In this document: piece by piece, positions 336 through 18,244 of the stretch | Layout of the letters: the number at the start of each line of letters is the position of its first letter | Position numbering within the stretch: the first letter of the stretch is position 1 | Source of the DNA: Hyphomonadaceae bacterium | GTDB lineage: Bacteria > Pseudomonadota > Alphaproteobacteria > Caulobacterales > Hyphomonadaceae | Direction of reading: 5' to 3' | DNA length: 35,951 nucleotides | Assembly (NCBI GenBank): GCA_030158285.1 | Contig: JAOATF010000181.1 | Span: 1 to 35,951, forward strand | The notes under the pieces: model-generated | The model's input: only the letters and a program-made list of their open reading frames with translations | Told to the model about the DNA's origin: nothing | Database searches by the model: none | Made by a program: the position numbers and the translations under genes

Positions 336-411
336 TCCCTGATAGCTCAGTTGGTAGAGCATTCGACTGTTAATCGAATGGTCGCTGGTTCGAGTCCAGC
401 TCAGGGAGCCA
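336..411 (+). tRNA. tRNA-Asn(GTT), integration target
   Basis: A complete 76-nt cloverleaf can be drawn. The acceptor stem pairs TCCCTGA (336-342) with TCAGGGA (401-407), followed by discriminator G408 and encoded CCA (409-411). The anticodon stem is 362-366/374-378 with the loop CTGTTAA, and the anticodon GTT is at 369-371. An integrase gene starts 172 bp downstream in the same direction, the usual arrangement when a tyrosine recombinase uses a tRNA 3' end as attB. The tRNA stays intact because the element restores its 3' end. Confidence 0.96.
397..411 (+). other. attL core candidate (tRNA-Asn 3' end)
   Basis: P4-type integrases usually recombine within the 3' end of a tRNA, leaving a direct repeat that ends at the CCA. 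The last 15 bases of tRNA-Asn, CAGCTCAGGGAGCCA, recur with a single-base deletion at 13119-13132. The true repeat may be longer, because flanking TCGCTG and GGTT pieces are also shared with gaps. Confidence 0.5.
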
Positions 412-425
412 GTTGCCTTTTTGGG

Positions 426-582
426 TACGGTAGTTTCGGACCCCCTCAAGGCTTCAAGTCCATAAAAATCAGGTGTTTCTCGCGTTTCCGGTGAACTCCA
501 CCGGACCCGCAGTCGCGCTACCGTCACCCGGAAGACGGTATTTCTTACGGTATCGGGTCCGATGCTTGCAGGGGATACCGTA
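426..582. repeat. Integrase arm-type site cluster, left end
   Basis: Five copies of the heptamer (G/T)ACGGTA lie between tRNA-Asn and the integrase start: 426-432 (+), 519-525 (-), 534-540 (+), 546-552 (+) and 576-582 (-). The last ends one base before the integrase ATG. Mixed orientation and position next to int fit arm-type sites bound by the integrase N-terminal domain, which could also repress int. Three exact copies recur at the other end of the element. Function is inferred; the repeats themselves are seen. Confidence 0.6.
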
Positions 583-583
583 A

Positions 584-1876
584 ATGAAGCTGACCGCAGA
601 CCAGATCAAAGCAGCCGAGAAGCGCGCGACGCCATACAAGATGGCGGACGGGCATGGGCTCTATCTCTATGTCGCGCCGGGTGGCGGGAAGCTCTGGCGT
701 CTCGACTATACCAGCAAGACCCGCACTGGCCGGATCGGACGGAACGGGAAAGCGGTGAAGTCAGGCCGAAACACCCTCAGTCTGGGGGCGGCCCATGTCG
801 CGACACTAGAAGACGCCCAACGGTCGCTGGACAAGGCCCGCGCCGACGCCACAGCCGCGCGCGAGCGGATCGCACAAAGCCGCGACCCTGCCCAAGAGCG
901 AGAGGTCGCCAAGCTGACGGCAGCCCGCGAAGCTCGAAACACCTTTGCCCATGTCGCCGCAGAGGTGGTCCGGCAAATGCGGAGGGACGGCAGGGCGCCC
1001 AGAACCGTCCGCAAGCGCCTCTGGATTTACCGCGCGCTGGCGAATGACCTTCGCAGGCGCCCAGTCGCCGACATCACGGCGCCGGAAATCAAGGCGGCCA
1101 TCAAGCGGGTTGCGGATCGCGGCACGCTGGAGTCGGCGCGTCGCCTGCGCTCCGCCATCGGGCAGGTTATGCGACACGCAATCTCCGAAGGGCTCCGTCC
1201 CGCTGGCAGCGACCCCACGCCTGCCATGAAGGGAGTCATCAAGACCGGAAAGACAAAGCACCGCGCAGCCGTCACGGCGCCAGAGGAAGCCGGTCGACTC
1301 ATGGTCGCCATGGAAGGTTACCCCTCGCCGCTCGTGCGCACCGCCCTGATGCTATCGGCCTACACGTTCGTTCGGCCATCGGAACTGCGTCTGGCGAACT
1401 GGCAGGAACTCGACCTTCGCAAGCGCCTCTGGATCATCCCGGCGGAGCGGGTGAAGGTTCGCGAAGAGCATCGCGTACCGTTGTCCAATCAAGCCCTGCG
1501 TCAGTTTCAGTTGCTCTGGCGCCTCACCGGTCGCAGCGGTGATGGGCTCTGCTTCCCCGGAGTCCGCCACGGGCGCCCGCTATCAGAGAACACCATCAAC
1601 ATGGCGCTCCGGACTCTCGGCTTCGCAGCGGATGAGCATTGCGCGCACGGCTTCCGCGCGATGGCTTCGACCATCTTGAACGAGCATAGCGACTTCGAAG
1701 GCGACGTGATTGAGCGGGCGCTAGGCCACAAAGAACCGAACGCCGTGCGCAGGGCTTACAATCGCGCCTCGCACATGGCGGAGCGTATGAAGCTCATGCA
1801 GTTCTACGCCGACTTTCTGGACGAGCAGGCGGGTGCCATCCGGAAAGAACATCAGGATCGGCGCTTCTTCGGCTGA
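584..1876 (+). CDS. int: P4-type tyrosine recombinase (integrase)
   Basis: This 430-residue site-specific recombinase integrates and excises the element at tRNA-Asn. The N-terminus (about 1-95) has the DUF4102 arm-binding pattern, with DGHGLYLYV and GGKLWRLDY. A core-binding segment follows (about 120-220), then a catalytic domain with Arg264 in FVRPSELR, His355 and Arg358 in HGFR, His382 in LGHK and nucleophile Tyr392 in RAYNR. All the expected catalytic residues are present, so the enzyme looks functional. The start is the ATG right after a GACGGTA-type site, with GGGGA about 7 nt upstream. Length is normal for the family. The gene reads away from the tRNA, as in P4 and many genomic islands. 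Confidence 0.95.
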   Translation: MKLTADQIKAAEKRATPYKMADGHGLYLYVAPGGGKLWRLDYTSKTRTGRIGRNGKAVKSGRNTLSLGAAHVATLEDAQRSLDKARADATAARERIAQSRDPAQEREVAKLTAAREARNTFAHVAAEVVRQMRRDGRAPRTVRKRLWIYRALANDLRRRPVADITAPEIKAAIKRVADRGTLESARRLRSAIGQVMRHAISEGLRPAGSDPTPAMKGVIKTGKTKHRAAVTAPEEAGRLMVAMEGYPSPLVRTALMLSAYTFVRPSELRLANWQELDLRKRLWIIPAERVKVREEHRVPLSNQALRQFQLLWRLTGRSGDGLCFPGVRHGRPLSENTINMALRTLGFAADEHCAHGFRAMASTILNEHSDFEGDVIERALGHKEPNAVRRAYNRASHMAERMKLMQFYADFLDEQAGAIRKEHQDRRFFG

Positions 1877-1969
1877 CTTCCGCTCGTCGGAATCTAGTCC
1901 GCGCTGGACTTCGCCGGGCCAAACAATCATCGTGGGGGCCGATGCAAAACCGGGAAGGGGCTTGTAGAG

Positions 1970-2320
1970 ATGTTCGGTAGATCAAGCGGCAAAGAGAACA
2001 AACCCGAGTTGGCTGGCGCCGTGCGCTACTTTTTCGAGTTTGCAGAGTTTTGTCTGGACCATGTTGATGCCCAGAACAAAGTGGCCGTCGATGTCGCCAT
2101 GGCGAGCCAATTCCGTGAGAAGTTCCTCGGTCAACCGGGGCGGCAGGACTTGGGTCTAGGCAAGATGTCGCGAATCGAAGCGGAAGCGATTTCCTTCGCG
2201 CAACACCATCTGACACAGAAGAAGACGTTCCTTATCGGTCAGGTGATGATGTCCGGCGAACCAAACATGCAGTTGCCTTTGGCGAAGGAAGTAAGCGCCC
2301 ATCTCGCGAAAATCATATAG
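1970..2320 (+). CDS. Hypothetical protein (116 aa)
   Basis: I do not recognise this protein. It is soluble-looking, with helical segments around AVRYFFEFAEFCLDHVDAQNK and a C-terminal stretch QLPLAKEVSAHLAKII. There is no signal peptide, membrane span or metal motif. The ATG has a good ribosome site (AAGGGG, 9 nt spacing). It is the only gene besides integrase that reads rightward in the element and is convergent with the zinc-ribbon membrane protein, whose end lies 6 bp away. It lies in the usual accessory slot next to int in satellites, so a helper- or host-directed function is possible, but nothing in the sequence shows it. Confidence 0.6.
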   Translation: MFGRSSGKENKPELAGAVRYFFEFAEFCLDHVDAQNKVAVDVAMASQFREKFLGQPGRQDLGLGKMSRIEAEAISFAQHHLTQKKTFLIGQVMMSGEPNMQLPLAKEVSAHLAKII

Positions 2321-2326
2321 TCTCAG

Positions 2327-2839
2327 CTAGTAAGAGACACTGGCCGCCTTGGCACCGCAGCGGGTGCATCTCATCGCATTTGCGTCCACTCGCAAAGATC
2401 GGTGCGCGGCGCTGGCTGAAGCGCCTTCGGTTGTGGAAGCACGCTTCTGCATCAAGAGTTTTAGGTCTCGATCATCCAGCGATTTTACATGCTGGCACTT
2501 GTTGCATTTGATCGTCGATCCAACGCGGACGGTAACGACTTGCGTTGGCTGAGCGGATTGCAGGGGCTTTTTGTCGAGCACTGGAACACGCGGCGGATGC
2601 GGATTTTCTAGCCCGCTGGCCTTTTCCTGGTTCGTGCGCTTCCGCCTTCCGAAGATCGAGTTTCCGATCAAGAAACCAACGGCCAATTCAATTACAGTAA
2701 CCGCCCCCCACGCGGGCCCGAACGCCGACGCAAAGGCCAGTACTGTAACGGCGCACTTCACAAGCAACGAGCGCGAAGTGAGGGCCCCGGTGACGAACCC
2801 CAGAGACAAAACGGCGACTGCATAATGCCACTGGAACAT
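2327..2839 (-). CDS. Membrane protein with C-terminal zinc ribbon
   Basis: This 170-residue protein has two or three hydrophobic helices in its first 65 residues (AVAVLSLGFVTGAL, CAVTVLAFASAF, VTVIELAVGFLIGNSIFG). A basic RRKR stop-transfer stretch, a Pro-rich linker and a cytosolic tail follow. The tail carries two CxxC pairs, CNKC and CTRC, separated by roughly 45 residues, which would make a zinc ribbon. The Met at 2839 is chosen over an upstream in-frame Met at 2944 because it has an AGGGG ribosome site 8-9 nt upstream. It is the last gene of the leftward series. No family is recognised; a sensor or effector at the membrane is a guess. Confidence 0.6.
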   Translation of the reverse strand: MFQWHYAVAVLSLGFVTGALTSRSLLVKCAVTVLAFASAFGPAWGAVTVIELAVGFLIGNSIFGRRKRTNQEKASGLENPHPPRVPVLDKKPLQSAQPTQVVTVRVGSTIKCNKCQHVKSLDDRDLKLLMQKRASTTEGASASAAHRSLRVDANAMRCTRCGAKAASVSY

Positions 2840-3020
2840 CTGAGCCGCCCCTGTCAGATCGGCAGAAACAAAACCTAAGGCAGTGAGTTCAGTCCACGCA
2901 AGGCTCCCCTGAGGTAATGGCAGTCGTCGCCCGGTGAAGAGCATGGATCAGAGCGACGCTAGCCGAGCGGATCAGGTTCTCCGAGAAGGATCGCTGGAAG
3001 CGGATGACCCGGAAGGGGGT

Positions 3021-3422
3021 CTAGGCGTCTCTTACGATCTGGGCCGAGCGATACTTCAGATACAGGGCCTTTTGTTTCTGCTGGTCGCCGCCTGCATCGG
3101 CGAAAGCCTTTGCCCAGAGCCCCGGCTGTGCGTTGCCTGACTCAACTTCCTTAGCTGCGATGGCGTACGCGTCTTCCTCGCGACGCGAACGTTCTGAGTT
3201 GCCGCGCATCTTGTGCGCTTCTGTCGTTACGGAGTCGGCGGCCTGTCTTGCGGCTTCAATTGTGGCTGCCGCAGCTTTCGTGGCAATGGCACCGGCCTTT
3301 CCCGCGTTGTTTTTGGCGAACCGAACCGAGCTTCGGGCGACTACGATACACACAGCGATGAAGCCGAATACGAGCAGCAGCGACGTTATCGTGATAAGCG
3401 CTGCCCACCCCTGTGCCGGCAT
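3021..3422 (-). CDS. Small membrane-anchored helical protein
   Basis: This 133-residue protein has one N-terminal transmembrane helix (WAALITITSLLLVFGFIAVCIVVA). A long Ala-rich charged region follows (KAGAIATKAAAATIEAARQAAD) that would form an amphipathic or coiled helix in the cytosol or periplasm. The C-terminus has WAKAFADAGGDQQKQKALYLKYR, a pattern reminiscent of short-helix repeats seen in many bacterial membrane proteins. The Met at 3422 has GAGGGG about 7 nt upstream; an upstream in-frame start at 3545 lacks this. It lies directly after terL on the same strand. No function can be assigned. Confidence 0.6.
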   Translation of the reverse strand: MPAQGWAALITITSLLLVFGFIAVCIVVARSSVRFAKNNAGKAGAIATKAAAATIEAARQAADSVTTEAHKMRGNSERSRREEDAYAIAAKEVESGNAQPGLWAKAFADAGGDQQKQKALYLKYRSAQIVRDA

Positions 3423-3605
3423 AGTTATTCCCCTCGCAAATGTGAATGTTATAGGGGAAACAAACCCGGCTCGATAGCCCTGTACCGGACGGTTGATAGC
3501 ATTGTCCAGACCGTCCTGGTCCCAGAGGTACGCAGCCCGGATCATTGAAGGCGGTGGCTGTACATCGCTCTTTCTGCCACCGCTTCAAACGCCCTTCTGG
3601 GGTGC

Positions 3606-5438
3606 TCACTGTCTCCCTCTCTGCATCCATTTCGAGTGAACCACTGTGGGAATCTTCGGCGCCGTGATGACGTTCCGAACTTCGTTTTCCCGGCGGGTGA
3701 GGTCCACACTGCAAAGTTGGCGAACGGCCATCGCCATGCAGGTCGCGTCTAACGCCTCGTTGCGAACGCCGGGGATTCTTTCCCAACGCTTCCGCACCTG
3801 CCCTGCCTTGTAGAAGGTGACGCGCCGTTCGCCGCACAACTCCTCATAGAAGCGCGTTGGCAGATCGTGGGAGAAGCGGATCAGCGTCGGCTGCCCCAGC
3901 AGGCCATAGAGCCGGCTCTTCGCTGTGTCGGCGCCCATGATGTAAAGGCCCTGCTTGCTCGACCGATCAATGAGCAGACGGTTGCCCCCGTCGCCCTTCA
4001 GGCTCACCACGCGGCGCGCAAACCGTGGCCGCGTGAAGCGATAGACGATGTCGGTATGCGAGCCGGAGCCGGAGTCGACGCCAGCCGCGTCATAGCCGAG
4101 CGATCCGCCCAATAGATGTGGGAAGGATCGCTTCAGAAGGTCATCCAGGTCGCGCCAGGTTTGGTCGGAGGTCGGCGGGCCATGCACCGTGTCATAGTCC
4201 AGCACGACGATGGCGCCGGTCGCGGTGTGGCCTAGCGTGACCACCTCTAGCCTATCGTCCTGCACGTCCACGCCCGCCGTCAGCAAGAGCACGTCCGGCG
4301 GGATAGACTGCAGTCCGCAGGGCTCTGCACGGGCTTGCAATTCGGAGTCGTTGAGTCCCTCGCCTGCCTTGTCTATCCACGCCTCTCCGATGAGGGTGTT
4401 CGTCCAGACCCGGAGCAGGTCGGGGTCTTTCCGCGCGGCCAGGAACTCGCGCGCGATCTCCGCCCAACTCGCGTTCGCCAATGTCGAGATAAGCGCCGAT
4501 GTCTTGAACCCGGCATGGCCCTTCACCTGCGGCCGGGTCGCGCGCCAACGGCCAGCTTCGACCATGGCGGGCTTGCTCGACTCGTCGATCACGCACCCAT
4601 TCGCCGGGCAGACCATGTGCGCGGTGTGCGGCAGATGTTCGCCATTCGAGTCCTTGTCGAATTTCAGATGGCGCCAGAGTGGCTCGAAGTGCTCGCCACA
4701 ATGCGGACAGGGAAGCTCGAAAATGCGCTGATCCGACTCGCCATACGCCTTCAAGATGTTCGACGACTCCGCATTGGTCGGAGTCGACGCTTGGAAAATG
4801 AGGCGGTTCGGGAAGGATAGCGTCCGCTTTTCCGCTAGTGCCGTTGCAGAACCTTCGGCGGACGGCTCATAGGCGTCCACCTCGTCCATGACCAGGATGC
4901 GGATGGTGTGGCGCCGCAGGTTGCGCGGCGATGCAGCGGCAACGCATTTGAACGAACCACCGGGGAAGCGGCGTGACAGGATGGTGTCGCGGTTCGCCTT
5001 CTCTCTCGTGAACACGCCAGCTAGCGCCGGACTGGCCGCGAAGGTCGGCTCGATTGTTCCGGTCACATAGTCGCGGCAGTCATCGAGCGTCGGCTGAAGT
5101 GCGAGGATGTTGCAGGGATCATTCTTCACATACGCGGCGATGATTGCCGTTATCAGCATCGTGGCGCCGATCCGGACGGGCTTCACGAACGAGACGCGCG
5201 AGATGCCGGGATCGTCTACCGCATCGCAGATGCCTCGCTGATAGCTGAAGAGCGCCATGGCGCCCGGAGTCGCACTCACGTCCGCAGGCAAGGTGATGTT
5301 GGACTCGATCCAGTCGGCCAGCCTGATCTTCGGCGGAGGCGCCCATTGCGCGAGGGTTTCTGCAATCGCTCCCGCAAGAGGAGAGGATGTCGAGAGTTGG
5401 CCCGTGGTGGGCGTTTCGAGTTCGAGGGCGTCAGACAT
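3606..5438 (-). CDS. terL: Terminase large subunit, GpA family
   Basis: This is the DNA-packaging motor and nuclease (610 aa). The N-terminal ATPase has a degenerate P-loop region around VKPVRIGATM (85-94), as is common in GpA-type enzymes, and a clear Walker B LVMDEVD (182-188). The conserved SFPNRLIFQASTPT (208-221) corresponds to the coupling region. A zinc-binding insert has Cys244, Cys247, Cys277 and Cys282. The C-terminal nuclease domain carries AGVDVQDDRLEV and the downstream YDAAGVDSG. Length and domain order match full-length lambda gpA-type terminases, so it looks intact. The start at 5438 overlaps the terS stop by 8 bp; longer readings into terS lack support. GpA-type terminases usually cut at cos sites. 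Confidence 0.93.
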   Translation of the reverse strand: MSDALELETPTTGQLSTSSPLAGAIAETLAQWAPPPKIRLADWIESNITLPADVSATPGAMALFSYQRGICDAVDDPGISRVSFVKPVRIGATMLITAIIAAYVKNDPCNILALQPTLDDCRDYVTGTIEPTFAASPALAGVFTREKANRDTILSRRFPGGSFKCVAAASPRNLRRHTIRILVMDEVDAYEPSAEGSATALAEKRTLSFPNRLIFQASTPTNAESSNILKAYGESDQRIFELPCPHCGEHFEPLWRHLKFDKDSNGEHLPHTAHMVCPANGCVIDESSKPAMVEAGRWRATRPQVKGHAGFKTSALISTLANASWAEIAREFLAARKDPDLLRVWTNTLIGEAWIDKAGEGLNDSELQARAEPCGLQSIPPDVLLLTAGVDVQDDRLEVVTLGHTATGAIVVLDYDTVHGPPTSDQTWRDLDDLLKRSFPHLLGGSLGYDAAGVDSGSGSHTDIVYRFTRPRFARRVVSLKGDGGNRLLIDRSSKQGLYIMGADTAKSRLYGLLGQPTLIRFSHDLPTRFYEELCGERRVTFYKAGQVRKRWERIPGVRNEALDATCMAMAVRQLCSVDLTRRENEVRNVITAPKIPTVVHSKWMQRGRQ

Positions 5439-5775
5439 CGGCGCCCCCCTTGCCGCTCGCCAGCGCCTGAAGGGCGGCCCTGATTTCCTCATCCATGGCC
5501 GCCACGGTCTGACGGGAAAGCGCGAGCTTGGCGCCGAGACGGCTCGGGATTGCCAGAAGACGTTGCCGCGCGTCCGCCACCAGGCCGGACCAGGTTGCAG
5601 CGACATCGGCGGCGGGGATCAACTCGCCACGCATCTTCGCGTTCTTCAGTTCCACCTGTTCGGCTTGCGCCAGCACGAGCTTTTGCCGGTGGTCCTCGAC
5701 AGGCCGACCCGGTGCGCGTTTCGGCGGCGCCGGTTCGCCAATGAGGTCTTCCATTGATCGACGGGAATCACGCAT
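5431..5775 (-). CDS. terS: Terminase small subunit, Nu1-like, lacking the HTH half
   Basis: The protein is 114 residues. The part from about 32 to 80 (QVELKNAKMRGELIPAADV and WSGLVADARQRLLAIPSRLG) matches the usual C-terminal, oligomerising and TerL-binding half of Nu1-type small terminases. The winged-helix DNA-binding half that Nu1 carries at its N-terminus is not visible. The first 30 residues are basic and Pro-rich instead (PPKRAPGRPVEDHRQK, an AT-hook-like GRP). It overlaps terL by 8 bp, so the two are translationally coupled. An ATG at 5775 is chosen; a GTG one codon upstream is possible. A cluster of GTGGACA iterons lies just upstream. Confidence 0.8.
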   Translation of the reverse strand: MRDSRRSMEDLIGEPAPPKRAPGRPVEDHRQKLVLAQAEQVELKNAKMRGELIPAADVAATWSGLVADARQRLLAIPSRLGAKLALSRQTVAAMDEEIRAALQALASGKGGADV

Positions 5776-5881
5776 CACGGTACTCGCCTGAAAATGTTGA
5801 ATCGGAAAATTCGGGAAAGCGGAAAAGACCGGGGCTCAGCGGACCCCCGACGCGGCGCCCCCGACAAAGTACCTTCGCCGT

Positions 5882-6085
5882 CTGTCCACCCTGTCCACCC
5901 ATGACCACCCAGACCACCCCACGCTTTCTCAGGCGCGTGTGCGTGCGCGCATACGTGTAGAGTCTAGGGTGGACAGGGTGGACAGGGTGGACAGAGGCAG
6001 AAAAGCGAGCAGCTACGGGGGATTTTCTGTCCACCCATGGCGTGTGTGATCGGTGGACAATGGGTGGACTCATGACCAGTCCACC
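5882..6085. repeat. GTGGACA / TGTCCAC iteron cluster
   Basis: The gap between the helicase stop and terS holds repeated GGGTGGACA units. Three perfect tandem copies lie at 5967-5993. Inverted copies lie at 5882-5890, 5891-5900 and 6027-6036, with degenerate copies at 5901-5920. Further copies at 6052-6059, 6062-6070 and 6078-6085 run into the helicase 3' end. An alternating purine-pyrimidine stretch (about 5932-5957) separates the inverted and direct arrays. Such an arrangement suits a replication origin bound by the helicase or an accessory protein. It also suits a cosB-like packaging site next to terS. Which one cannot be told from sequence. One related copy (AGTCCACCC) lies at 12725-12733. 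Confidence 0.75.
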
Positions 6086-7440
6086 TTGCTTCCGAGCCAT
6101 TTGGCGAACTCGCGCCTGCACTCTTCGAGCGGAGGCAGGTCATAAAACCAGGTCCGCGCACGGCCTTCGCGCCTCCGCGCATCCACGGCGCTAGGGCACA
6201 TGTCGCGAAGCTCACGGCCAAACATGTCTGCCGTGAGAATGTCGCCATGGTGGTGGCGGCCTCTCATCCACACGTCCAGCGCGCTCCGCAGATCATCCTT
6301 GCGAACGCTGACGGCCTGCTCCCGCCAGTCCGGGGGATCACTTTCGAAGCGTTCGTGGCGCTCGCAGGGATTGTCACCCGCCGCCAATACCTCGTGCCAC
6401 CATGCCTGAATGCCTCTCAGACCGGCCAGCTTCTCGACGGCCAGCGCCTCCGTCTGCGGGATGGTCCGCACGTCCACGCGCGACAGGTCGAAGTCCAGCA
6501 GGTAGCGCATCAGCGCGCGACGGCCGCCGCCTTCCATCTCATCCGCGATGGCGCCGAAGTATTCCCCGTCACGCGCGCGAGCGTCGCTCAAGTCCAGCAC
6601 GCAATAGCGCCGCTCATCGTGGCGCGCGGGGACGGTCCAGCGTTCGTTGCTGGTCATCATGTAGCGATGGAATGAGGGAAGCTCGATTGCATCGACTCCC
6701 TTCTTCTCAAGCTGGATTGTCGGGCCGGTGATGAGATGCTTCAGGGCGCCTTCGGCGGCCTTGTCGCCAGCCCAGAAGCCTTCCTCAATCTGGACCAGAA
6801 GGGCCGTCGCCATGTGAGCGTTGAACTGCCCCGTGAGGCCGCGCGGCGTGTAGACGGTCGTATAGTGGCGACGCATCAAGGCGCCGAACTCTTGCGCGAC
6901 AATCGACTTCCCGGCGCCTTGCGGGCCCTTCAGGACCAGAGCCGTTCCCGGCTTCTCCCATGGCCGTTGGATGGTATGGGCCATCCACCCCATGACCCAA
7001 TCGAAACGCTCGCCCTTGCCCCTGCAAACGTGGTCGTGGATGTGGTCCAGGTAGAGATCACATGACCCCTTGGCGCTCGGGGTGTATGAGAAGCCCTTCC
7101 ACAAGTTGAGCGCGCCCGGCGTCTTCTCGCGCGGGTCCAGAACGATGCTCGTGTATTGGCGCCGGTGCCGACTCTGCATCCAGATTTTAGCGGCGGAGGT
7201 GAATACGTCCCCGCCGCGAGTCGTGCGTGACCACACGCCATCATTGGCGAACCAATGCTCGAACTCGCGAACGGAAACGATGCTCATTGAGCCGTCGCGC
7301 TCTTCGCGCACGACGCCCTTCCCGAACACGTAGGCGTGTGTCTCGTTGATGCGCGCGACGATTGCCGCCTGCTCTTCGATCTCGTGCGGGGCCAGTTCGG
7401 ACTCGATGCCCAGAATGTCTTCCATTGATCGCCGGGTCAT
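6070..7440 (-). CDS. SF3-type replicative helicase (DUF5906-like)
   Basis: This 456-residue ATPase probably unwinds element DNA for replication. It has a Walker A motif GPQGAGKS (172-179), a Walker B-like ALLVQIEE (213-220), the SF3 motif C MMTSN (261-265) and a following basic patch with Arg273, Arg277 and Arg278 that could hold the arginine finger. This set is typical of the phage and plasmid DUF5906 or VapE-like helicases. No primase catalytic domain is visible, so priming would come from the host or helper. The ATG at 7440 overlaps the upstream stop as ATGA, indicating translational coupling. Satellites and P4-like elements commonly carry a helicase of this class. Confidence 0.85.
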   Translation of the reverse strand: MTRRSMEDILGIESELAPHEIEEQAAIVARINETHAYVFGKGVVREERDGSMSIVSVREFEHWFANDGVWSRTTRGGDVFTSAAKIWMQSRHRRQYTSIVLDPREKTPGALNLWKGFSYTPSAKGSCDLYLDHIHDHVCRGKGERFDWVMGWMAHTIQRPWEKPGTALVLKGPQGAGKSIVAQEFGALMRRHYTTVYTPRGLTGQFNAHMATALLVQIEEGFWAGDKAAEGALKHLITGPTIQLEKKGVDAIELPSFHRYMMTSNERWTVPARHDERRYCVLDLSDARARDGEYFGAIADEMEGGGRRALMRYLLDFDLSRVDVRTIPQTEALAVEKLAGLRGIQAWWHEVLAAGDNPCERHERFESDPPDWREQAVSVRKDDLRSALDVWMRGRHHHGDILTADMFGRELRDMCPSAVDARRREGRARTWFYDLPPLEECRREFAKWLGSKVDWS

Positions 7441-7964
7441 GGCATGCGCACCTTCCAGAGCAGGTCGCTGAACTGACGCCGACTCCAAATTTTGAAGATT
7501 GCCTCATCGAGCATGGCCTTGGGGATGGCAGCGAAGCCATGGCCGCCGCGCCACCTTGGCGCCTCCAGAACCAGGCGGCACGCGATGGCGGTAGGATGCT
7601 CGCCAGAGGTGACAATCGCGCTCTGGCGCCTTGCCCACGCCTCGTCTGCGATCCGTCGCCGCTCGCGCTGGGGTCGCGTCATGTTTCGGGGGTCATGCCA
7701 CGGGGGCAGCGGGCCCTTGCCATCCCGAAAGTGTTCCAGTTCCCGCATGTGTTGCCATGGGAAAAGCTCGGCAGGCCAACGCTGCCTGCCTTCGATGATG
7801 GCCTTGGCCTTGTTGCGGATGGCGCGGCGATGCTCCGGCACACGCTCGCGCGGATCGAAGCGCAATAGCTCCAGCGCAAGCAGCGCATCGGCGGGCGCCA
7901 GACGATGAGCTTTTTCTGACTTGGGGTGTTGGCTGGGGTTTCCCGCCTCAGTATCGTTTGTCAT
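7437..7964 (-). CDS. Hypothetical protein upstream of helicase (175 aa)
   Basis: I do not recognise this protein. It is Arg- and Trp-rich, soluble and mostly helical, with a middle stretch MTRPQRERRRIADEAWARR and a C-terminus AMLDEAIFKIWSRRQFSDLL. A strong GGAGG ribosome site lies 8 nt before the ATG. Its stop overlaps the helicase start (ATGA), so the two proteins are made together. Its position suggests a replication accessory or DNA-binding role for the helicase, which is inference only. The 106-bp gap upstream (7965-8070) holds nothing I can name. Confidence 0.7.
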   Translation of the reverse strand: MTNDTEAGNPSQHPKSEKAHRLAPADALLALELLRFDPRERVPEHRRAIRNKAKAIIEGRQRWPAELFPWQHMRELEHFRDGKGPLPPWHDPRNMTRPQRERRRIADEAWARRQSAIVTSGEHPTAIACRLVLEAPRWRGGHGFAAIPKAMLDEAIFKIWSRRQFSDLLWKVRMP

Positions 7965-8070
7965 TGCTTCGGCCCTCCATGGCCGGGGTATTCATCGCGG
8001 CCTTGCAGGGCCGTTTCATCATTGCGGTGTTCCCTTGGGCCCCCGGTTCGCGTCGGGGGTCCATTGGCCG

Positions 8071-8334
8071 CTACACGATGAGTCTCTTCGCTCTTGCCCA
8101 CGCCTTCACCGCTTCGGCGGAGAAGGTCGCGCGCTTTCCATCTTCCTTGACGTGGACCGGCTGAAGGTCGCCGCACTTCCACGCTCGCAGGATTGTTGAA
8201 GACGACACGCGAGCCAGACCCGCAGCCGTTTCGTGCGTGACCTCATCGAGGCAGGCGGACGCCGCACGCTTGCGAGCACGTGCAAGCGCAGCGGCGCCGC
8301 CATCAGCCTCTGAGAGGTTGAGCCGGGCAGCCAT
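8071..8334 (-). CDS. Small HTH_17/MerR-like DNA-binding protein (87 aa)
   Basis: The C-terminal two thirds (about 34-87) reads as an excisionase or MerR-like winged HTH. ETAAGLARVSSSTILRAW forms the helix-turn-helix, a basic KEDGKR wing follows, and FSAEAVKAWARAKR forms the final helix. This pattern is shared by AlpA/Xis-like proteins and by the N-terminal half of lambda Nu1. The start overlaps the upstream DUF2190 stop by one base (TGATG), so it is in the head-gene operon and not beside the integrase. It could be an excision factor, a transcription regulator, or the DNA-binding half missing from the short TerS. The sequence alone does not decide. Confidence 0.75.
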   Translation of the reverse strand: MAARLNLSEADGGAAALARARKRAASACLDEVTHETAAGLARVSSSTILRAWKCGDLQPVHVKEDGKRATFSAEAVKAWARAKRLIV

Positions 8335-8690
8335 CAGACTGCGACAGCCGGTTGCGTGAGGCGAACGCGAACGGTCGTGGCGCCGGCTCCCGCCACTGCC
8401 ACCGCGACGCCGATCCGGACGGTTCCGCCGGAGTTGGAATCCTCATCTGCGTTGCTGTGCGCGTTGCCATCCGTCGCGTTGAAGTAGACGAACGCGCCGA
8501 CGGTGAAGACGCTTGCGCTATTCTTCGCCAGAGCGAAAACGCCTTCCGTGACGAGGTCGAGGCTTTCGCCCGTCGCAGCATCGCCAGCGGCCACGCCGAA
8601 GAGCGAGCCAATCAGAACGCCATCGCCCGAGTCGACAGTGGCGGGAGCCGTCACGGTGATCGTGCGGCCGGGTTGAACAAGGTTTTTCAT
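8334..8690 (-). CDS. Capsid decoration/cement protein, DUF2190 family
   Basis: This 118-residue protein is nearly all beta-strand and Gly/Ala/Val-rich. It begins with MKNLVQPGRTITVTAPATVDSGDGVLIGSLFGVA and ends with GTVRIGVAVAVAGAGATTVRVRL, the standard pattern of DUF2190 proteins. These proteins lie beside major capsid genes and include capsid-stabilising decoration proteins. The ATG overlaps the stop of the gpW-like gene by 4 bp (ATGA). Its presence implies the element builds a mature head. It is full length for the family. Confidence 0.82.
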   Translation of the reverse strand: MKNLVQPGRTITVTAPATVDSGDGVLIGSLFGVAAGDAATGESLDLVTEGVFALAKNSASVFTVGAFVYFNATDGNAHSNADEDSNSGGTVRIGVAVAVAGAGATTVRVRLTQPAVAV

Positions 8691-8914
8691 TTGCAGTCTC
8701 CAAATTTGGAAATCTTGAAGCGGAAAGTATTCGGGGGAGCGGATTGCATGGCCGCGATCCGGCTTTCGAGCGCAGCAATTGCGCGTTGCATGGCGCCGGG
8801 AGATGCGTAGGTGATCTCCTCCTCGCCAGACTTCACTGACAGCACCCCGCGACCGAGTTGGCGGACCAACTCGTCACGAAGCGTCATCAACTCTTGAACC
8901 GTGAGCGCGGTCAT
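8687..8914 (-). CDS. gpW-like head-tail joining protein
   Basis: At 75 residues this has gpW size and pattern: an N-terminal helix (LTVQELMTLRDELVRQLGRG), a short beta hairpin (GVLSVKSGEEEITYASP) and a C-terminal helix (GAMQRAIAALESRIAAMQ). gpW fills the portal channel after packaging and forms the platform on which the tail docks. In an element without tail genes it would be the connection point for a helper tail. The ATG at 8914 is preferred, with GGGAG 10 nt upstream. A TTG at 8923 overlapping the capsid stop is possible but crowds the ribosome site. Confidence 0.78.
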   Translation of the reverse strand: MTALTVQELMTLRDELVRQLGRGVLSVKSGEEEITYASPGAMQRAIAALESRIAAMQSAPPNTFRFKISKFGDCK

Positions 8915-8919
8915 GAGGA

Positions 8920-10764
8920 TCAAGCTCCCGCGCTATTAGAGTCGTTCTCGTCGCCGTTCTGGACGCGGTACGCGCCGCGCCAGCCGATGGCCGCCGCGCC
9001 GACCACGTGGATGCAGCGGAAGCTCACGCCCCACGTATCCCACGCTTGCTGCGTCTCGATCTGCGGGCCTTCGCGGCCAGCCAGATGCGCCAGTTCGAGC
9101 ACGGGCGCCAAAGCCGGATCAGCGAACACGAACCATTGGAACGGCTCCAAACGCGGCTCGACCATGAGCGTGAGCTTGGACTGGAAGGGGTTCGTCTCGC
9201 CGAAGGTCTGGGCCTGATACTGGGCCAGGAATTTCTCGGCGTGGGTCTCCATCTCTTTCGAGACAACGAGATGCTTCGGCGCGATGTTCAGCAGAGTCGT
9301 CCCATCCAGCCCGGTGATGCTGCGCATGGATTGGCGAATATCGCTCATCAGCCCGACGCCACCGATGTCATCCAGCGTGCCCCACGCCATGGTGTTGGCG
9401 TGGTCGGCGCTGAAGAGGTTGAAGCCGTCATCCATCGCCGGGTTGGCGTTGATAACGGCAATCAGTTCGTCCGCATCACGAGCCGCCGCAGCGATGCCGA
9501 ATTGCTCGGCTGCATCAGTGAGTGCACCGAGGTTGTCGTTGAGAATCGCCTTCATGCTGTAGTCGATTCGACGTGCGAACGGCTTCACGCGGATGGTCAA
9601 CTTGGACTCCTCACGCGAAGCGTGCGTGATCTCGCCATGCTCGCCCAGTTCCTCCAGCGCGCCGAACTCGCCTGCGCGAAGCCGCTCGTTGTCGCGGAAG
9701 TCGCTGACGGTCGTCTTCTTCGCCAAGCTGACAAAGGGAGAAGGCGCCACGCCGTACTTCGCCAACGCGACGCGGTTGGCCGTACCGCCCAGAAGGTGGT
9801 TCGGCATATCGGACGTGCCCATGTAGCGAAGCGCAAGCTGCACCCTTTGCTCGCGCGACATGCCGAAGGTGCGGACGCCAGCGCGTTGAAGAACGAGGTC
9901 CAGATGCTCCGAAACCGAAAGCCCCCGGAACTCTCGCGCGTTGTCAGCCGGCGCCGTGCCCATAGCGCGAGACGTCAGCGCGTCGATCTGCCGAGACATG
10001 ATCTCGTCCGGATTGTCGTGCGAGGCGCCGACGCGAGCGGGGGGAATGCTCCGCGTGCGTTCCTGCATGATTTCATACGCGCGCGTCTTCGCATCCGCTT
10101 CGGTCCCGTCCGCGTCGATAATGACGTCGGCCTCTTCGGCCGCTCGCTCAAGATTTCCCGGCAGGGCTTTCCTGAAAATGTTGCGAATCTCCGCGCGCGT
10201 TTGCGCGACGGTGGACTCGTTCGCGGGCGTGTCGATCACGTCCGCTTCAGGCGCCGGATTGGCGCCGCTCTTCTTAGGCATGGGATTGCTCCGTACTTTG
10301 GCGCCGGGATCGGCAGGGATTGGGACGATGCTTGCCTCGTGGATTGACCACGCCAGCGCCGTCCGAAAACGCTGGCCTTTGGAGTCTGTGGAATCGGCCC
10401 AGCGCGTGACGCGGTAGCCGATTGAAATGCTGCGAAGGATGCCGTCGCGGATGTCGCCAACGATGCCCGCCACGTCATCGCGGCTGGACAGCTTCAGGCG
10501 TGCGCGGATTTCTCCGTCTTTGCGCCATGCCTTCTCGATCACACCCAGCACGGCGCGCGTGCTGCCTTGGTTGTGCGCGTCCAGAACGGGCTTGCCTTCG
10601 ATGTCGCGAAGGTCCGCGTTGGCGATGGGCAACCGCTCGATATAGCCACCGCGATTCACATCGGCGCCGGTCGAGAGAACAACCTCAACCGTGTTGGCTT
10701 CCGCGTTGAACGTGGTCGGCGCGAGCGATGCGGCGCGCAATTCGAGTTGGATGCTATTCGGCAT
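8920..10764 (-). CDS. Prohead protease-major capsid fusion protein
   Basis: This single 614-residue polypeptide makes the protease and the shell. The N-terminal 160 residues form an HK97-type (U35) prohead protease with His63 in LDAHNQG and Ser112/Ser114 in RSISIGY. A charged, Ala-rich middle region (about 165-280) resembles a scaffold or delta domain. The C-terminal 300 residues resemble the Mu gpT-like or HK97-fold capsid family, with FGALEELGEHGEI, FNLFSADHAN and VSFRCIHVVGAAAIGWRG. Fusions of this kind are known in phages and should self-cleave during maturation. The start at 10764 overlaps the portal end by 11 bp; a longer reading lies inside portal. No break is visible. Confidence 0.9.
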   Translation of the reverse strand: MPNSIQLELRAASLAPTTFNAEANTVEVVLSTGADVNRGGYIERLPIANADLRDIEGKPVLDAHNQGSTRAVLGVIEKAWRKDGEIRARLKLSSRDDVAGIVGDIRDGILRSISIGYRVTRWADSTDSKGQRFRTALAWSIHEASIVPIPADPGAKVRSNPMPKKSGANPAPEADVIDTPANESTVAQTRAEIRNIFRKALPGNLERAAEEADVIIDADGTEADAKTRAYEIMQERTRSIPPARVGASHDNPDEIMSRQIDALTSRAMGTAPADNAREFRGLSVSEHLDLVLQRAGVRTFGMSREQRVQLALRYMGTSDMPNHLLGGTANRVALAKYGVAPSPFVSLAKKTTVSDFRDNERLRAGEFGALEELGEHGEITHASREESKLTIRVKPFARRIDYSMKAILNDNLGALTDAAEQFGIAAAARDADELIAVINANPAMDDGFNLFSADHANTMAWGTLDDIGGVGLMSDIRQSMRSITGLDGTTLLNIAPKHLVVSKEMETHAEKFLAQYQAQTFGETNPFQSKLTLMVEPRLEPFQWFVFADPALAPVLELAHLAGREGPQIETQQAWDTWGVSFRCIHVVGAAAIGWRGAYRVQNGDENDSNSAGA

Positions 10765-12121
10765 TGGAGTCGTCCTCTTCGGTCTCAGGATCATCGCCAG
10801 GCGCTTGCGCGTGCGGGTCCGCTGCGATGTCTGCGTCCACGCGTTCGATGCTTTCGCCGCGCGCTGCGATGGCTTCGGCGCGGCTCATGGTCTTCATGTC
10901 CAGCGCGAGCTTGACGGCTTGCAGGGCCTTCAGCGGGTCGGCTTCAGGCATGGCGGGGAAGCGCCATTCGGCAACCTCCCCGCCATTCTCCTCGCCCTGA
11001 AGCTGCCGTGTGAGGGTCCAGCGGCGCCAGATGGGCGCGAGAAGCTGAGGAACGATGACGTTGAATTGCAGCGCCTCCAGAGACGCCTTGAACGTGATGA
11101 GCGCGGCGCGAAGGCTCGAATAGTTCGCGCGGCTCACGTTCCCAGAGACCATGAAGGCAGGAACGCCCAGCCCGGCCGCAATCTCCTCCGTGATGGCGGT
11201 CATAAACTCGACGGACTGTTGAGCCTGCGTCGGCTGATTGAACTTGATGTCCATTCCGGACGGCAGACGCCGCACGACTCCGGGCTCCAGCGACACCTCC
11301 AGCGTGTCGCCGCTCTTCTCGCCTTCGAACGGAAGCTGGGCGGCGCCGTTTGCATCCGTGAGGAATCCGGCGTGCATCGCCGCAACCTGGAAGCCCTTCA
11401 GCAGTGCATCAGAGAGGAGCCCCAAGTCTGCGAGCTTCAGCATGATCGGCGCGAACCATGAGACGCCGCGAATCTGGCCGACGCCATCAGGCCGCATCAG
11501 GTGCAGCACGTCCGCCGCATCCACGCGCACTGGCGGCGCCCACGTCTCGAACTGTTGAGTCGGCAGGAAGGGCCTTATCCAGTACGCGACGCGCTCCCCT
11601 TGCGCGTTATGTTCGATGCCCGCCGCTATGAAGGCGGCGCCGCCAAGCTCGCGAGTGACGGACTCGTCCACCTGCTCGGCAGGCAATAGCTGGAGTTTCA
11701 GGCCGTCCGCACGTTGGCGGAAGACAACGAACACCTCGCCATCAACGATGAGCGCCTGAATCGCTAGCCGGATCAGACCGCCGAAGTTTGTCCGGCCATC
11801 CGCATCGCAATTGTCCCACCATTGCAGGAAGGCTTCGGCCAGCCCCGTGTCAGCGTGAGCGGGAACGGCGCCGGCTCCCCACAAATAGGTCGCGAGCGCG
11901 TTGACGCTGGCCGAAGCGCGCGCCTCATTCGCTGCGAAGTAGCGGGCCTTGCTGCGGATCGACCCGGCGGCCTGAATGGTCTCCAGCGACGTGCGGCCAT
12001 GGCGCACCTCACGGGCGAACCGATCAAAGCGGCCAGCGTCATAGCCGCGCGTCCGCATCTCCGGCGCGATGGCGCGAGCGATGGCTTGGCGAGCCCGGCG
12101 GAAGATGGATGCGCGGGCCAT
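10754..12121 (-). CDS. Portal protein, lambda gpB family
   Basis: This 455-residue protein forms the dodecameric ring through which DNA enters and to which the tail docks. Recognisable segments are the N-terminal NEARASASVNALATYLWGAG region, the central DVLHLMRPDGVGQIRGVSWFAPIM, and the highly characteristic GVPAFMVSGNVSRANYSSLRAA at about 345-370. The acidic C-terminus ends in EEDDSNAE. Length is slightly under lambda gpB but the core is complete. The start has GGAGGG 8 nt upstream and lies 2 bp after the stop of the preceding gene. It comes before the capsid gene in transcription, while terminase lies about 5 kb further down, a rearranged order compared with lambda. Confidence 0.9.
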   Translation of the reverse strand: MARASIFRRARQAIARAIAPEMRTRGYDAGRFDRFAREVRHGRTSLETIQAAGSIRSKARYFAANEARASASVNALATYLWGAGAVPAHADTGLAEAFLQWWDNCDADGRTNFGGLIRLAIQALIVDGEVFVVFRQRADGLKLQLLPAEQVDESVTRELGGAAFIAAGIEHNAQGERVAYWIRPFLPTQQFETWAPPVRVDAADVLHLMRPDGVGQIRGVSWFAPIMLKLADLGLLSDALLKGFQVAAMHAGFLTDANGAAQLPFEGEKSGDTLEVSLEPGVVRRLPSGMDIKFNQPTQAQQSVEFMTAITEEIAAGLGVPAFMVSGNVSRANYSSLRAALITFKASLEALQFNVIVPQLLAPIWRRWTLTRQLQGEENGGEVAEWRFPAMPEADPLKALQAVKLALDMKTMSRAEAIAARGESIERVDADIAADPHAQAPGDDPETEEDDSNAE

Positions 12122-12123
12122 GG

Positions 12124-12672
12124 TCAGCCCTCCGTCCGGAGCGGCTGCACGTTGGAGTCCTTGGTCGCGAACCGCTTCAGCAGGACATGCAGGTTGATGA
12201 CGTATTCCGCGACGGGGTCATGGCGCGGCGTCGGCGATGCGATGGGCTTGTCGTATTCGTCTTCAAACCGCGTGGCGCATGTCGGCTGATATGCGCCGCT
12301 CACCTCGTCGCGCCACATGGTCATAACCAGGAAGCAGCACTCCCCCGCCGCGATGGCGTCCAGAATGTGCTCGATATGCGGACGGATGCCCTCGCCATGG
12401 GGCTCCGCAAGAAAGCGCCACATGCCGCGAAGCTGATCCTTCGCAGTGACGACTCCCGCGTCATGCAGATCGCAGAGAACCGCGAAGATGGCGCCAGTCC
12501 ACTGGGGGTAGAGGAAAGCCTTCCCGCCGGGTGCAGGGACTTCGCCATCGTGAGGGACGATGCCAAGCGTTCGCCAATAGTTGAGAGTCGATCCGGCTTG
12601 CGCCCGCGTTCTGCCGGGACGCGCCGCGAATGCAGCGACCTGCCCATTCTTGAGTTTTTCGCCCGTGTCCAT
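12124..12672 (-). CDS. First gene of head operon, putative MerR-like regulator
   Basis: The 182-residue product begins with a region (about 20-75) compatible with a MerR-type winged HTH. TRAQAGSTLNYWRTLGIVP would be the recognition part, followed by a wing with GGKAFLY and a helix DLHDAGVV. The remainder (WRFLAEPHGEGIRPHIEHIL and onward) is not recognised. The Met at 12672 is chosen because GAGG lies 5 nt upstream; an in-frame Met at 12711 lacks a good site. It heads the leftward operon and lies about 140 bp after two palindromes (12809-12847), as expected for a self-regulating or switch protein. The HTH reading is tentative. Confidence 0.6.
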   Translation of the reverse strand: MDTGEKLKNGQVAAFAARPGRTRAQAGSTLNYWRTLGIVPHDGEVPAPGGKAFLYPQWTGAIFAVLCDLHDAGVVTAKDQLRGMWRFLAEPHGEGIRPHIEHILDAIAAGECCFLVMTMWRDEVSGAYQPTCATRFEDEYDKPIASPTPRHDPVAEYVINLHVLLKRFATKDSNVQPLRTEG

Positions 12673-12808
12673 TTCAGCCTCAAAACTTAAACTTGAGACC
12701 AGCGAATCCATGAGTTTTTCTACGAGTCCACCCCCCTCCCCCTCAGCGACCCCCGCGCGAATGGCATGCTATAACTATGATTTTGCAGGACTTACGCAGC
12801 CTCGGCAG

Positions 12809-12847
12809 GTCAGAACTTTTCTGACATCGTTTAGGCGAGTTAAACTC
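12809..12847. promoter_or_regulatory. Paired palindromes, candidate operator of head operon
   Basis: A perfect inverted repeat GTCAGAA-CTT-TTCTGAC (12809-12825) is followed 11 bp later by a second palindrome GAGTT-A-AACTC (12837-12847). Both lie in a gene-free stretch upstream of the leftward operon that starts at 12672. Their size and spacing fit binding sites for a dimeric repressor or activator. I cannot fix a -10/-35 pair with confidence. Confidence 0.45.
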
Positions 12848-12992
12848 AAATACCGGGCGTTAGCCGCCCTCCGCCAAGCCGGAATGCTCCGGATTCGGAC
12901 ACGCGGAAGGGCGCCGCCGGACAGGCGGGAGCGGCCTAGAAAGCCCCTGAAAAAATTTTGCAGGCAGGTTGCGGATTCGGCGGTCGTGCCGA

Positions 12993-13070
12993 TACCGTCG
13001 CCTCCGTGGCCTCGATCCCCTCAGAAGTCGCCAGATTTCCGGTAGATCGACGGTAGCAGTGCTGACGGTA
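12993..13070. repeat. Integrase arm-type site cluster, right end
   Basis: Three exact GACGGTA heptamers, at 12993-12999 (-), 13049-13055 (+) and 13064-13070 (+), match those found beside the integrase at 426-582. The right-end copies lie 49-126 bp inside the candidate attR. Matching arm sites at both ends support the element boundaries independently of the weak core repeat. Confidence 0.55.
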
Positions 13071-13118
13071 TTCGCGAGAATGCCTGATTTTATTGACTTG
13101 GTTGGCTTCGCTGCGGTT

Positions 13119-13132
13119 CAGCTCAGGAGCCA
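13119..13132 (+). other. attR candidate, degenerate tRNA-Asn 3' end
   Basis: CAGCTCAGGAGCCA equals the last 15 bases of tRNA-Asn with one G missing. The preceding bases (TCGCTG, then GGTT) also match tRNA-Asn T-arm sequence with a short gap. The displaced host copy of a tRNA 3' end is free to decay after integration. If this is attR, the element may excise poorly. A chance match remains possible. Confidence 0.4.
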
Positions 13133-13626
13133 TTCGTCCCCCCCTTGGTAAAACGCGAATCATCCCCTTCCCCGGGGCTGCAGGCATGCGCCGAACGCTG
13201 ATGTTTGCGTTCGCAAGATAGTTGCCCTTCGGAAGCTTTCCAAAAGCTGTCAGAATTCGGGTTCCCCGCCCTGCGGGGGTATCGGTGAGACTTTCGAGAA
13301 CCGGCGGTGGCGGGGAAGGCTAGAGTTGAGCGTCCTTCAGGGTACTCGTCCGTACCCGTACAATTTGCGACAACGCGTCAGGCGTTTGTTTTCAGCCTGT
13401 TTCTGACGCGTTCTGTTAACCAGCCGCCGATTTGGGCGTCGCTGCCCGCCGCCTCGGCGCCTGCAGCAAAATGGTAATTAGAGTTGTCTCATTACCAAAT
13501 ACTCATCTGAGTGCTACGTAACATTTTACTCCCCGTTCAGTTGAAATTCATTGCCAAATTACCCCGAGAGGCGTTTGGTTCGGGAAGGTGGGCAACATAG
13601 GGTTGCGCCGTAGCTGTGGGGCTGCG
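13133..13626. other. Gene-free leader with three inverted repeats
   Basis: No convincing gene lies here. The stretch is less GC-rich than its surroundings and holds three inverted repeats: GGGTAC/GTACCC (13340-13357), a perfect 10-bp AACGCGTCAG/CTGACGCGTT with 21-nt spacer (13372-13412), and TGGTAAT/ATTACCA with 12-nt spacer (13472-13497). The last lies about 130 bp before the multicopper oxidase start and could be its operator. None has a T-run that would make it a terminator. Confidence 0.5.
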
Positions 13627-15972
<2,346 letters not shown>

Positions 15973-15993
15973 ATCGCGCGCGGCCTCCGCGGG

Positions 15994-16016
15994 CGCCGGG
16001 CTTGCAAAGCCCGGCG
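15994..16016 (+). other. Intercistronic hairpin
   Basis: A perfect 10-bp stem, CGCCGGGCTT with AAGCCCGGCG around a GCA loop, lies between the multicopper oxidase stop and the SCO-cytochrome start. No T-run follows, so it is more likely an mRNA-stabilising or attenuating hairpin within an operon than a full terminator. Confidence 0.6.
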
Positions 16017-16038
16017 TGCGTGACTCTGGAGAGTGATG

Positions 16039-17088: not shown

Positions 17089-17120
17089 GCTGAACAGAAG
17101 CTGTCGATGGGTGTCGCGCG

Positions 17121-17576: not shown

Positions 17577-17737
17577 CCGTCAGTCCCACCTCGAGAAGCG
17601 CAGAACGCTTCACCACGACTATAGCCCGTCTCTTGGCGAGCCCCCAGCCCGTCGCTCAGTTCAAGGCGATATGAGCAGACCGCGGTGCGATGGAACACGC
17701 CCATGCTGCACGGAACGAAAGGTAGCGAGCAATGCCC

Positions 17738-17989: not shown

Positions 17990-18244
17990 GCAGTATCCCC
18001 AGTCACCTTGTTGATTCCGGGTGTCGGACCATCCCCCGCTTCGGTCCGGCGGCGCCCGGTAAGCAACGCACTGATCCTCAAACGTGCGAGCCCGGCGTAT
18101 CCTTCGCTGGAATTTGGTACTTCCCGCAAAAAAGACAGGCCGCCGCTACGGAGATCGACACGCAGGGCCTTGTGTTCAAAGCCATTTCTTATCGAGGGTG
18201 CGACGTGTTATCCCACCCCGGCCTCGCAATTCGGGTGGCGCTCG

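Follow-up and report, generated by a model that had tools for sequence, protein, structure and literature searches.

The window analysed here, the whole stretch of 35,951 nucleotides of contig JAOATF010000181.1 (GenBank assembly GCA_030158285.1), is one contig (C181) in the 4.19 Mb draft genome of a Hyphomonadaceae relative. It contains an integrated element of about 12.7 kb, which lies at 412 to about 13,135 between a tRNA-Asn gene and an attR-like attachment site and is very probably a phage satellite that forms a head from its own proteins. A previous reading of the letters without database searches (the sequence-only reading) had described a tail-less head-and-packaging island at 397–13132, and these limits are now refined to the positions above, the right one being an imperfect attR-like site at 13115–13139. 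Fifteen frames of the element, each of at least 78 amino acids, were scanned with Pfam and PHROGs (E value up to 1), and NCBIfam was also used. The features of the element are listed below, with E values after the family names.

336–411, plus strand: tRNA-Asn(GTT), the integration target, whose 3' end is attL (ARAGORN and Rfam; empty site behind the equivalent tRNA in three sister genomes).
584–1876, plus strand: tyrosine integrase (PF00589 1.8e-19, PF22022, PF13356).
1970–2320, plus strand: small frame without assigned function (open reading frame only; no Pfam, PHROG or PADLOC match).
2327–2944, minus strand: possible accessory protein with hydrophobic stretches and CxxC motifs, as judged by eye (open reading frame only, not called by the gene caller; no convincing family).
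3021–3545, minus strand: possible accessory protein with one hydrophobic stretch, as judged by eye (open reading frame; no convincing family).
3606–5438, minus strand: terminase large subunit (TerL), gpA type (PF05876 1e-72, PF20454, phrog_15 9e-185; start placed by the lengths of relatives, open frame extending to 5606).
5431–5778, minus strand: terminase small subunit (TerS), Nu1-like (phrog_57 4.5e-17; PF07471 Nu1 weak, 0.017).
5830–5849, minus strand: candidate cos site CGGGGGTCCGCTGAGCCCCG, upstream of terS (similar sequence in 6 of 6 elements aligned).
6070–7488, minus strand: helicase/primase, start maybe at 7425 or nearby (PF19263 DUF5906 1.1e-21, phrog_1156 DNA primase 1e-47).
7437–7964, minus strand: conserved protein without family, ahead of the replication gene (relatives in C154, L033 and L035).
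8071–8334, minus strand: small helix-turn-helix protein (all matches weak: PF12728 HTH_17 0.016, phrog_2474 0.005, PADLOC mad1 0.004).
8334–8690, minus strand: cement/decoration protein, DUF2190 type (PF09956 8.5e-25, phrog_122).
8687–8923, minus strand: gpW-type head-tail joining protein, downstream of the capsid gene (phrog_2545 1.2e-8; NF047331 over cut-off).
8920–10764, minus strand: prohead protease/major capsid fusion (phrog_4523 8e-138, NF045541 over cut-off, PF25209; open frame to 10794).
10754–12121, minus strand: portal protein, lambda family (PF05136 1.2e-69, TIGR01539 over cut-off).
12124–12672, minus strand: MerR-like regulator heading the capsid operon (predicted fold; relatives in C154, G007, G003 and L033–L035; open frame to 12711).
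13115–13139, no strand: attR-like junction, right end (17 bases, 13119–13135, identical to the attR of the G007 element).

The minus-strand series begins near 12,672 and follows, in order of transcription, regulator, portal, protease-capsid fusion, gpW, cement protein, helix-turn-helix protein, the protein without family, helicase, TerS, TerL and two short unknown frames, with the terminase genes late in the head operon order; the integrase is on the plus strand beside the tRNA-Asn. The integrase, helicase, TerS, TerL, portal, protease-capsid fusion, gpW-like and DUF2190 genes named in the sequence-only reading are all present as open frames with profile matches. Its statement that tail, lysis and repressor genes are missing stands for tail, lysis and CI-type repressor families, none of which is found among the 15 frames, and is weakened by the MerR-like regulator (12124–12672) and the small helix-turn-helix protein (8071–8334). 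Within 12.7 kb the space for a tail module is small, as the tail genes of Rhodobacter phage RcOceanus span about 11 kb. PADLOC was run on five window frames and gave only the weak mad1 match of the helix-turn-helix protein.

The regulator has no family match in sequence. Its predicted fold (predicted local distance difference test score 83.6) has as best PDB match the MerR-type regulator CvkR (E 6.6e-3, probability 1.00), and no PDB match falls under E 0.001. Among 385 genomes of the class, the regulator sequence gave a match in its own genome only. No relative was confirmed in the viral contig collection, by a search that is insensitive since L033–L035 in that collection hold distant relatives.

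The left boundary is marked by the tRNA-Asn end, and no exact direct repeat of at least 12 bases starting at 331–600 occurs beyond base 600. The right end was located by comparison with a genome of the same genus (G007), in which a sister element occupies the same tRNA-Asn and ends in an attR that consists of a copy of the tRNA end followed by TTCTTTCC. This sequence lies directly 3' of the intact tRNA-Asn in G013, G004 and G006, all without the element, and the next gene at these empty sites (97–98 codons; 104 in G004) also adjoins the G007 element. Ten sister loci were read at tRNA-Asn, some on contigs that stop at or near the tRNA, and these three are the clean empty sites. G010 lacks the element and also the short gene of 97–98 codons, the G011 contig stops about 220 bases behind the tRNA-Asn and the G003 contig at it, and in G002, G014 and G008 the tRNA-Asn is more divergent (64–66 of 76 bases alike) and other genes follow. 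G001, G009 and G012 gave short matches only and are outside the ten loci.

Two further observations concern this target site. Behind the tRNA-Asn of G005 (C169, locus L123), a related integrase (70–77%) and type I restriction-like genes were recognised by eye from translations, and the head genes of the window have no match in the stretch read there. In the window, about 5 kb (13140–18170; a multicopper oxidase and others) separates the attR-like site from a short gene at 18245–18508, which is the counterpart of the short gene directly behind the tRNA in the empty-site genomes; this segment is probably a second, separate insertion at tRNA-Asn.

A capsid search of 150 genomes, that of the window included, gave a match in 6. 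A second element is present in the own genome (contig C154) near a tRNA-Leu, with the same head order and the integrase at the opposite end; no attR was found for it with up to 4 mismatches in 18 bases. Its identity to the window is 58% for the regulator, 84% for the portal, 52–56% for the major capsid protein, 51% for gpW, 56% for the cement protein, 37% for the helicase, 83% for TerS and 84% for TerL. The G007 and G003 elements also have the head order of the window, and the latter is divided over two contigs and contains a DNA methyltransferase. A viral contig of 13,232 bases (L033) carries the gene set of the window with a capsid 80% and a helicase/primase 79% identical, again with the integrase at the end opposite to the window arrangement; its ends have no exact terminal overlap, so that circularity is unsupported. 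The window integrase is 65% identical to that of the G007 element at the same tRNA, and TerL is 84–87% identical in C154 and G007. The replication protein is of the AAA_25 family in the G007 and G003 elements (55% identical to each other) in place of DUF5906, and the replication module can therefore be exchanged.

The sequence-only reading had anticipated insertions of related elements at several tRNA genes, and such insertions were found. In scans of 14 and then 39 loci, elements keeping head and terminase genes were also found near tRNA-Met, -Thr, -Glu and -Gln, in addition to tRNA-Leu and -Asn; the second scan found a tRNA in 10 of the 39 loci (nine of them tRNA-Met), but no tRNA is present in the scanned stretch of the other 29, nor in L026, L028 and L033. 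One relative is on a complete plasmid of Paracoccus sp. SMMA_5_TC, where an integrase, hypothetical proteins, a toprim protein, a hypothetical protein, TerL and a methyltransferase/HNH/methyltransferase group precede the head genes (portal, capsid, a small gene aligning with gpW and a DUF2190 protein), followed by one hypothetical protein and metabolic genes beyond. A plasmid of Rhodovastum atsumiense (NZ_OW485609.1, 10.7 kb; L098) encodes a protease-capsid fusion, ParA, a toxin-antitoxin pair and a DUF3987 protein, with no annotated terminase, portal or tail, and is perhaps a plasmid-borne satellite or a remnant.

A small protein follows the cement gene in L033 (5851–6189), with relatives in C154, G003, G007 and L035 and no significant match in the window. 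A head-tail connector behind the cement gene was considered as a general feature and rejected, given that the L033 model is unlike a connector and the protein is unmatched in the window. The model bears a weak resemblance (E 0.016, with no match below 0.001) to the RNA-polymerase-binding domains of Mfd and UvrD, and the protein is possibly a transcription-hijacking factor.

The position of gpW relative to the capsid gene separates the element and its relatives from tailed phages. The first collection consists of 83 loci, all with a capsid gene and including contig duplicates and halves of one element. The gpW gene is downstream of the capsid gene in 22 loci and upstream of it in 35, and it could not be placed in the other 26. 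At least 2 kb past the capsid gene is available in 21 of the 35 gpW-before loci, and 18 of these 21 have a tail or head-tail-attachment match, the remaining three (L027, L072 and L090) having a gene of more than 1,000 codons there. No tail match was found past the capsid in any of the 15 gpW-after loci (of 22) with at least 2 kb in this place. After 13 of the 83 capsids were dropped as short, an unrooted tree of 70 rows (65 different) placed 20 of 20 gpW-after capsids, including G079 with its long branch, on one side of a branch (100/100), with the tailed phages outside.

To test this on further loci, nine capsids of the gpW-after group were used as queries in a second scan, and the best 80 of at least 596 relatives were taken, four of them already in the first collection. 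Here gpW is after the capsid gene in 70 loci, before it in 0 and undecided in 10. A tree of 147 capsids (short row L214 excluded), made by a quick search that gave long-branch warnings, grouped 97 of 97 rows that are new or have gpW after the capsid (gpW was not located in 10 of these), separated from the rest by a branch with 100 in the Shimodaira–Hasegawa-like approximate likelihood ratio test (SH-aLRT), and the portal tree agrees (89 of 89, SH-aLRT 97). Clustering of the second set is expected because these loci were fetched by similarity to the gpW-after group; the informative result is that gpW precedes the capsid in none of the 80 and that no tail module was recognised in them by tblastn with 156 reference proteins, which came from annotated tails and from the region past the capsid of tailed relatives. 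The named hosts of the gpW-after group are Celeribacter, Paracoccus, Hyphomonadaceae and one unclassified proteobacterial metagenome-assembled genome. The window gpW was aligned with the gpW-position genes of tailed phages, and tailed phages of the same capsid family have gpW ahead of the portal gene and capsids outside the gpW-after group. Relatives in which the same genes run into a full tail, which the sequence-only reading had named as evidence against itself, were not found in these collections.

The genes of the element are also conserved in a manner that would not be expected under decay. The ratio of nonsynonymous to synonymous substitution rates (dN/dS) is 0.05–0.38 at dS of 0.48–1.37 (Nei–Gojobori; 13 gene pairs, 12 with a window gene and one between relatives), for example 0.13 for TerL and 0.25 for the 7437–7964 protein compared with L033. 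Low dN/dS indicates purifying selection, which is unexpected for a decaying element.

Judged from its sequence, the element is an insertion at tRNA-Asn with a full head-and-packaging set under purifying selection, a replication gene and a MerR-like regulator, within a group in which no tail module was recognised. The gene order of the relatives, the trees and selection all support the capsid-forming satellite that had been proposed, which would depend on a helper for its tail. The lineage looks like an old line of head-making satellites, not a decayed prophage.

Three other explanations were weighed. An autonomous small virus, with a short tail or entry device and lysis genes too divergent to be recognised, is very unlikely. 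It would explain the own head, packaging, replication and integration genes and would use the frames without family (2327–2944, 3021–3545 and 7437–7964), but these frames are short (at most 205 codons), the first two have no match in C154, G007, G003 or L033, and the retained head-tail joining protein is sensible only if a tail follows. Less likely again is an interference element, whose capsid and portal would poison or resize helper heads and whose DNA would travel in mixed or helper heads. Other satellites do resize helper heads by means of capsid homologues, as stated in excerpts of PMC8569155 and PMC6092414, but the portal, protease, capsid, cement protein, gpW, TerS and TerL kept here are more than resizing requires, and the capsid and portal evolve as a group of their own. 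The least likely, and already largely refuted, is a deletion derivative, for which a tailed prophage of this strain would have been stripped of its tail and lysis modules. The families of the head and terminase genes are indeed ordinary ones of tailed phages, but elements with this tailless order are also present at other sites and in other genomes, grouped on one side of both the capsid and the portal tree, gpW is placed differently from that of tailed relatives, the genes are under purifying selection, and sequenced phages reach best identities of only about 37% (TerL) and 33% (capsid) among the matches listed. Prophage decay was rejected on the trees, the gene order and dN/dS.

Several observations weigh against the satellite reading. 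In the own genome, a 90%-complete draft, the only lambda-type portals are those of the two satellites, and the tail markers TMP_2, PhageMin_Tail and GTA_TIM gave no match; possible helpers are a virulent phage, a prophage elsewhere and a phage whose tail genes belong to other families. The frames 2327–2944 and 3021–3545 might be lysis genes. The TerL tree needs 3 changes, and TerL does not form one group. Split frames exist in the lineage for the capsid (L035:2804–4637 and L028:9683–12030) and the portal (L040:8578–10002), which are sequencing errors or inactive copies. Many loci are partial: among those with gpW after the capsid, the sequence extends at least 2 kb past the capsid in 15 of 22 (first set) and 36 of 70 (second set). 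The tblastn search of the second set missed 2 of 4 tape-measure genes that were later found by profiles, and a lone tail gene of divergent sequence may therefore have been missed in other loci. With regard to the resident helper not found here, none of 17 resident prophages of Escherichia coli EDL933 mobilised the capsid-forming phage-inducible chromosomal island (cf-PICI) of this strain at detectable frequency, according to an excerpt of PMC11389934.

For a head-making satellite, the cycle could proceed as follows. A tailed helper phage would enter or be induced, a helper signal would act on the element regulator, the integrase would excise the island, and the DUF5906 protein would replicate it. 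The portal, protease-capsid fusion and cement protein would assemble a small head, and TerS and TerL would package about 12.7 kb of DNA after cutting at a cos site immediately 5' of terS. For this site there is a candidate: a 20-base sequence with short inverted arms, found once per element upstream of terS in 6 of 6 aligned elements, by a pattern fitted to those same six. The gpW protein would then close the portal and offer a joint for a tail supplied by the helper, which would also supply lysis. In phage lambda, gpW acts before tail attachment. Docking of the helper tail would occur at gpW and the portal. Some of the relatives with a tape-measure gene may, in addition, determine how long the borrowed tail is or what identity it has.

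The expectation that relatives are always tailless holds for tail modules, none of which was recognised in gpW-after elements, but five elements carry a lone tape-measure gene. In L038 (5576–8566) this gene has 996 codons, belongs to TMP_2 and is located between TerL and portal; those in L203 (13728–15806), L207 (12059–13933), L208 (3745–5703) and L219 (13562–14935) have 457–692 codons and belong to PhageMin_Tail. The best PHROG matches of the five are all tape-measure families (6e-42 to 7e-73). No other tail gene was recognised in these elements by tblastn with the reference proteins, a narrower search than a profile scan of all frames, which covered 14.1 of 17.6 kb in L038, 17.3 of 21.7 kb in L203, 15.9 of 18.4 kb in L207, 6.9 of 6.9 kb in L208 (a partial element) and 18.9 of 19.0 kb in L219. 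The capsid tree of 147 requires at least 3 tape-measure changes, and since L038 differs in both family and slot, there were probably at least two gains. By analogy with the phage-inducible chromosomal island-like elements (PLEs) of Vibrio cholerae, the simplest reading suggests that these five elements put their own tape-measure protein into chimeric tails. The window element has no recognised tape-measure gene.

In some relatives, the region between TerL and portal also holds other cargo, such as an EcoRI-like restriction enzyme with a methyltransferase (L041:4766–6659), a type I system (L044:500–7164), an N6-methyltransferase (L040:5325–8231), a DUF4062 protein (L036), a TonB_C protein (L038) and proteins without family (L068 and L042). 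Restriction-modification genes are found in the same slot at L099:10093–13494. In the accessory arm of the nearest relative, L033 (11640–12377), a Hypoth_Ymh protein also matches PADLOC Aga_HEPN and PD-Lambda-3_B.

From the above, a broader scenario can be put forward tentatively, with slightly less than an even chance of being right in all its parts. A single old lineage of head-making satellites would extend across Alphaproteobacteria, distinct from the described cf-PICIs and descended from a phage that had shed its tail and in which gpW had shifted to behind the capsid gene; a tape-measure gene would have been captured at least twice, giving chimeric tails of the satellite's own length from helper tubes, and the TerL-portal region would serve as a cargo slot for restriction-modification and similar genes. 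Head-making satellites on borrowed tails have been described only recently. A large related group of such satellites, marked by the place of gpW behind the capsid, would allow tests, beyond model gut bacteria, of how tail piracy arose and spread. The lone tape-measure genes raise the question whether a satellite with its own head also sets the length of the stolen tail, as PLEs do, and the restriction-modification cargo of several relatives makes these islands likely carriers of phage defence.

The element was also compared with known systems. A literature search by title or abstract start gave no report on this lineage; the papers that define and survey cf-PICIs are outside this comparison, and novelty is not claimed. 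The ocean element of PMC12324425, as far as its excerpt describes it, is unrelated. RcOceanus and Stenotrophomonas phage S1 share TerL, gpW, portal, fused capsid and a small gene in the cement position with the element, but their order is TerL-gpW-portal-capsid followed by tail and lysis genes, and their capsids are outside the satellite group; in RcOceanus, a head-tail attachment gene comes first after the capsid, before the tail genes. The recognised families of the element include neither the tail nor the lysis module of an autonomous tailed prophage.

Gram-negative phage-inducible chromosomal islands (PICIs), according to excerpts of PMC6092414, have an integrase, a replication module and a master regulator in conserved order, an AlpA activator, a size of about 12–15 kb, no phage structural genes (relaxed for cf-PICIs) and an att site never used by prophages. 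The element agrees in size (about 12.7 kb) and in having an integrase, a DUF5906 protein and a MerR-like regulator, with a head order common to C154, G007 and G003, whereas it does contain head genes; the integrase is at the other end in C154 and L033, and the regulator is a putative master regulator. The AlpA candidate (8071–8334) has only a weak HTH_17 match, and at the tRNA-Asn att site, one of the 10 sister loci read (G005) holds the related integrase and restriction-like genes.

Like the element, the Streptomyces phage satellites MulchRoom and MiniFlayer have their own capsid, portal, terminase and head-tail adapter, and MulchRoom particles have tails of helper-like length; the excerpt of PMC10690885 describes direct terminal repeats and no recognisable primase in them, whereas a helicase/primase and a candidate cos site are present here. 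PLEs place their own tape-measure protein into chimeric tails (excerpt of PMC12987554), which the five relatives may also make, but PLE particles have modified capsids, and remodelling of the helper capsid by PLEs is reported in the excerpt of PMC10945586, whereas the window lineage encodes its own capsid.

The cf-PICI set, as given in the same excerpt of PMC10690885, comprises capsid, head protease, portal, connector, TerS, TerL and an HNH endonuclease, and the excerpt of PMC11389934 describes three radiations of cf-PICI capsids. At 295–330 kb of EDL933, other prophage-like genes are present and the known cf-PICI was not located. Compared by description with cf-PICIs, the element differs in that protease and capsid form one protein (NF045541 family) and in that one connector was found, of gpW type and placed after the capsid; no HNH family occurs in the 15 window frames scanned. 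We do not file the element as a cf-PICI, since its protease is fused, no HNH gene was recognised and the match to AlpA is unclear. By analogy, it nevertheless works like one: it is integrated, encodes a capsid, protease, portal, connector, TerS and TerL of its own and has no recognised tail module, and a helper tail is expected.

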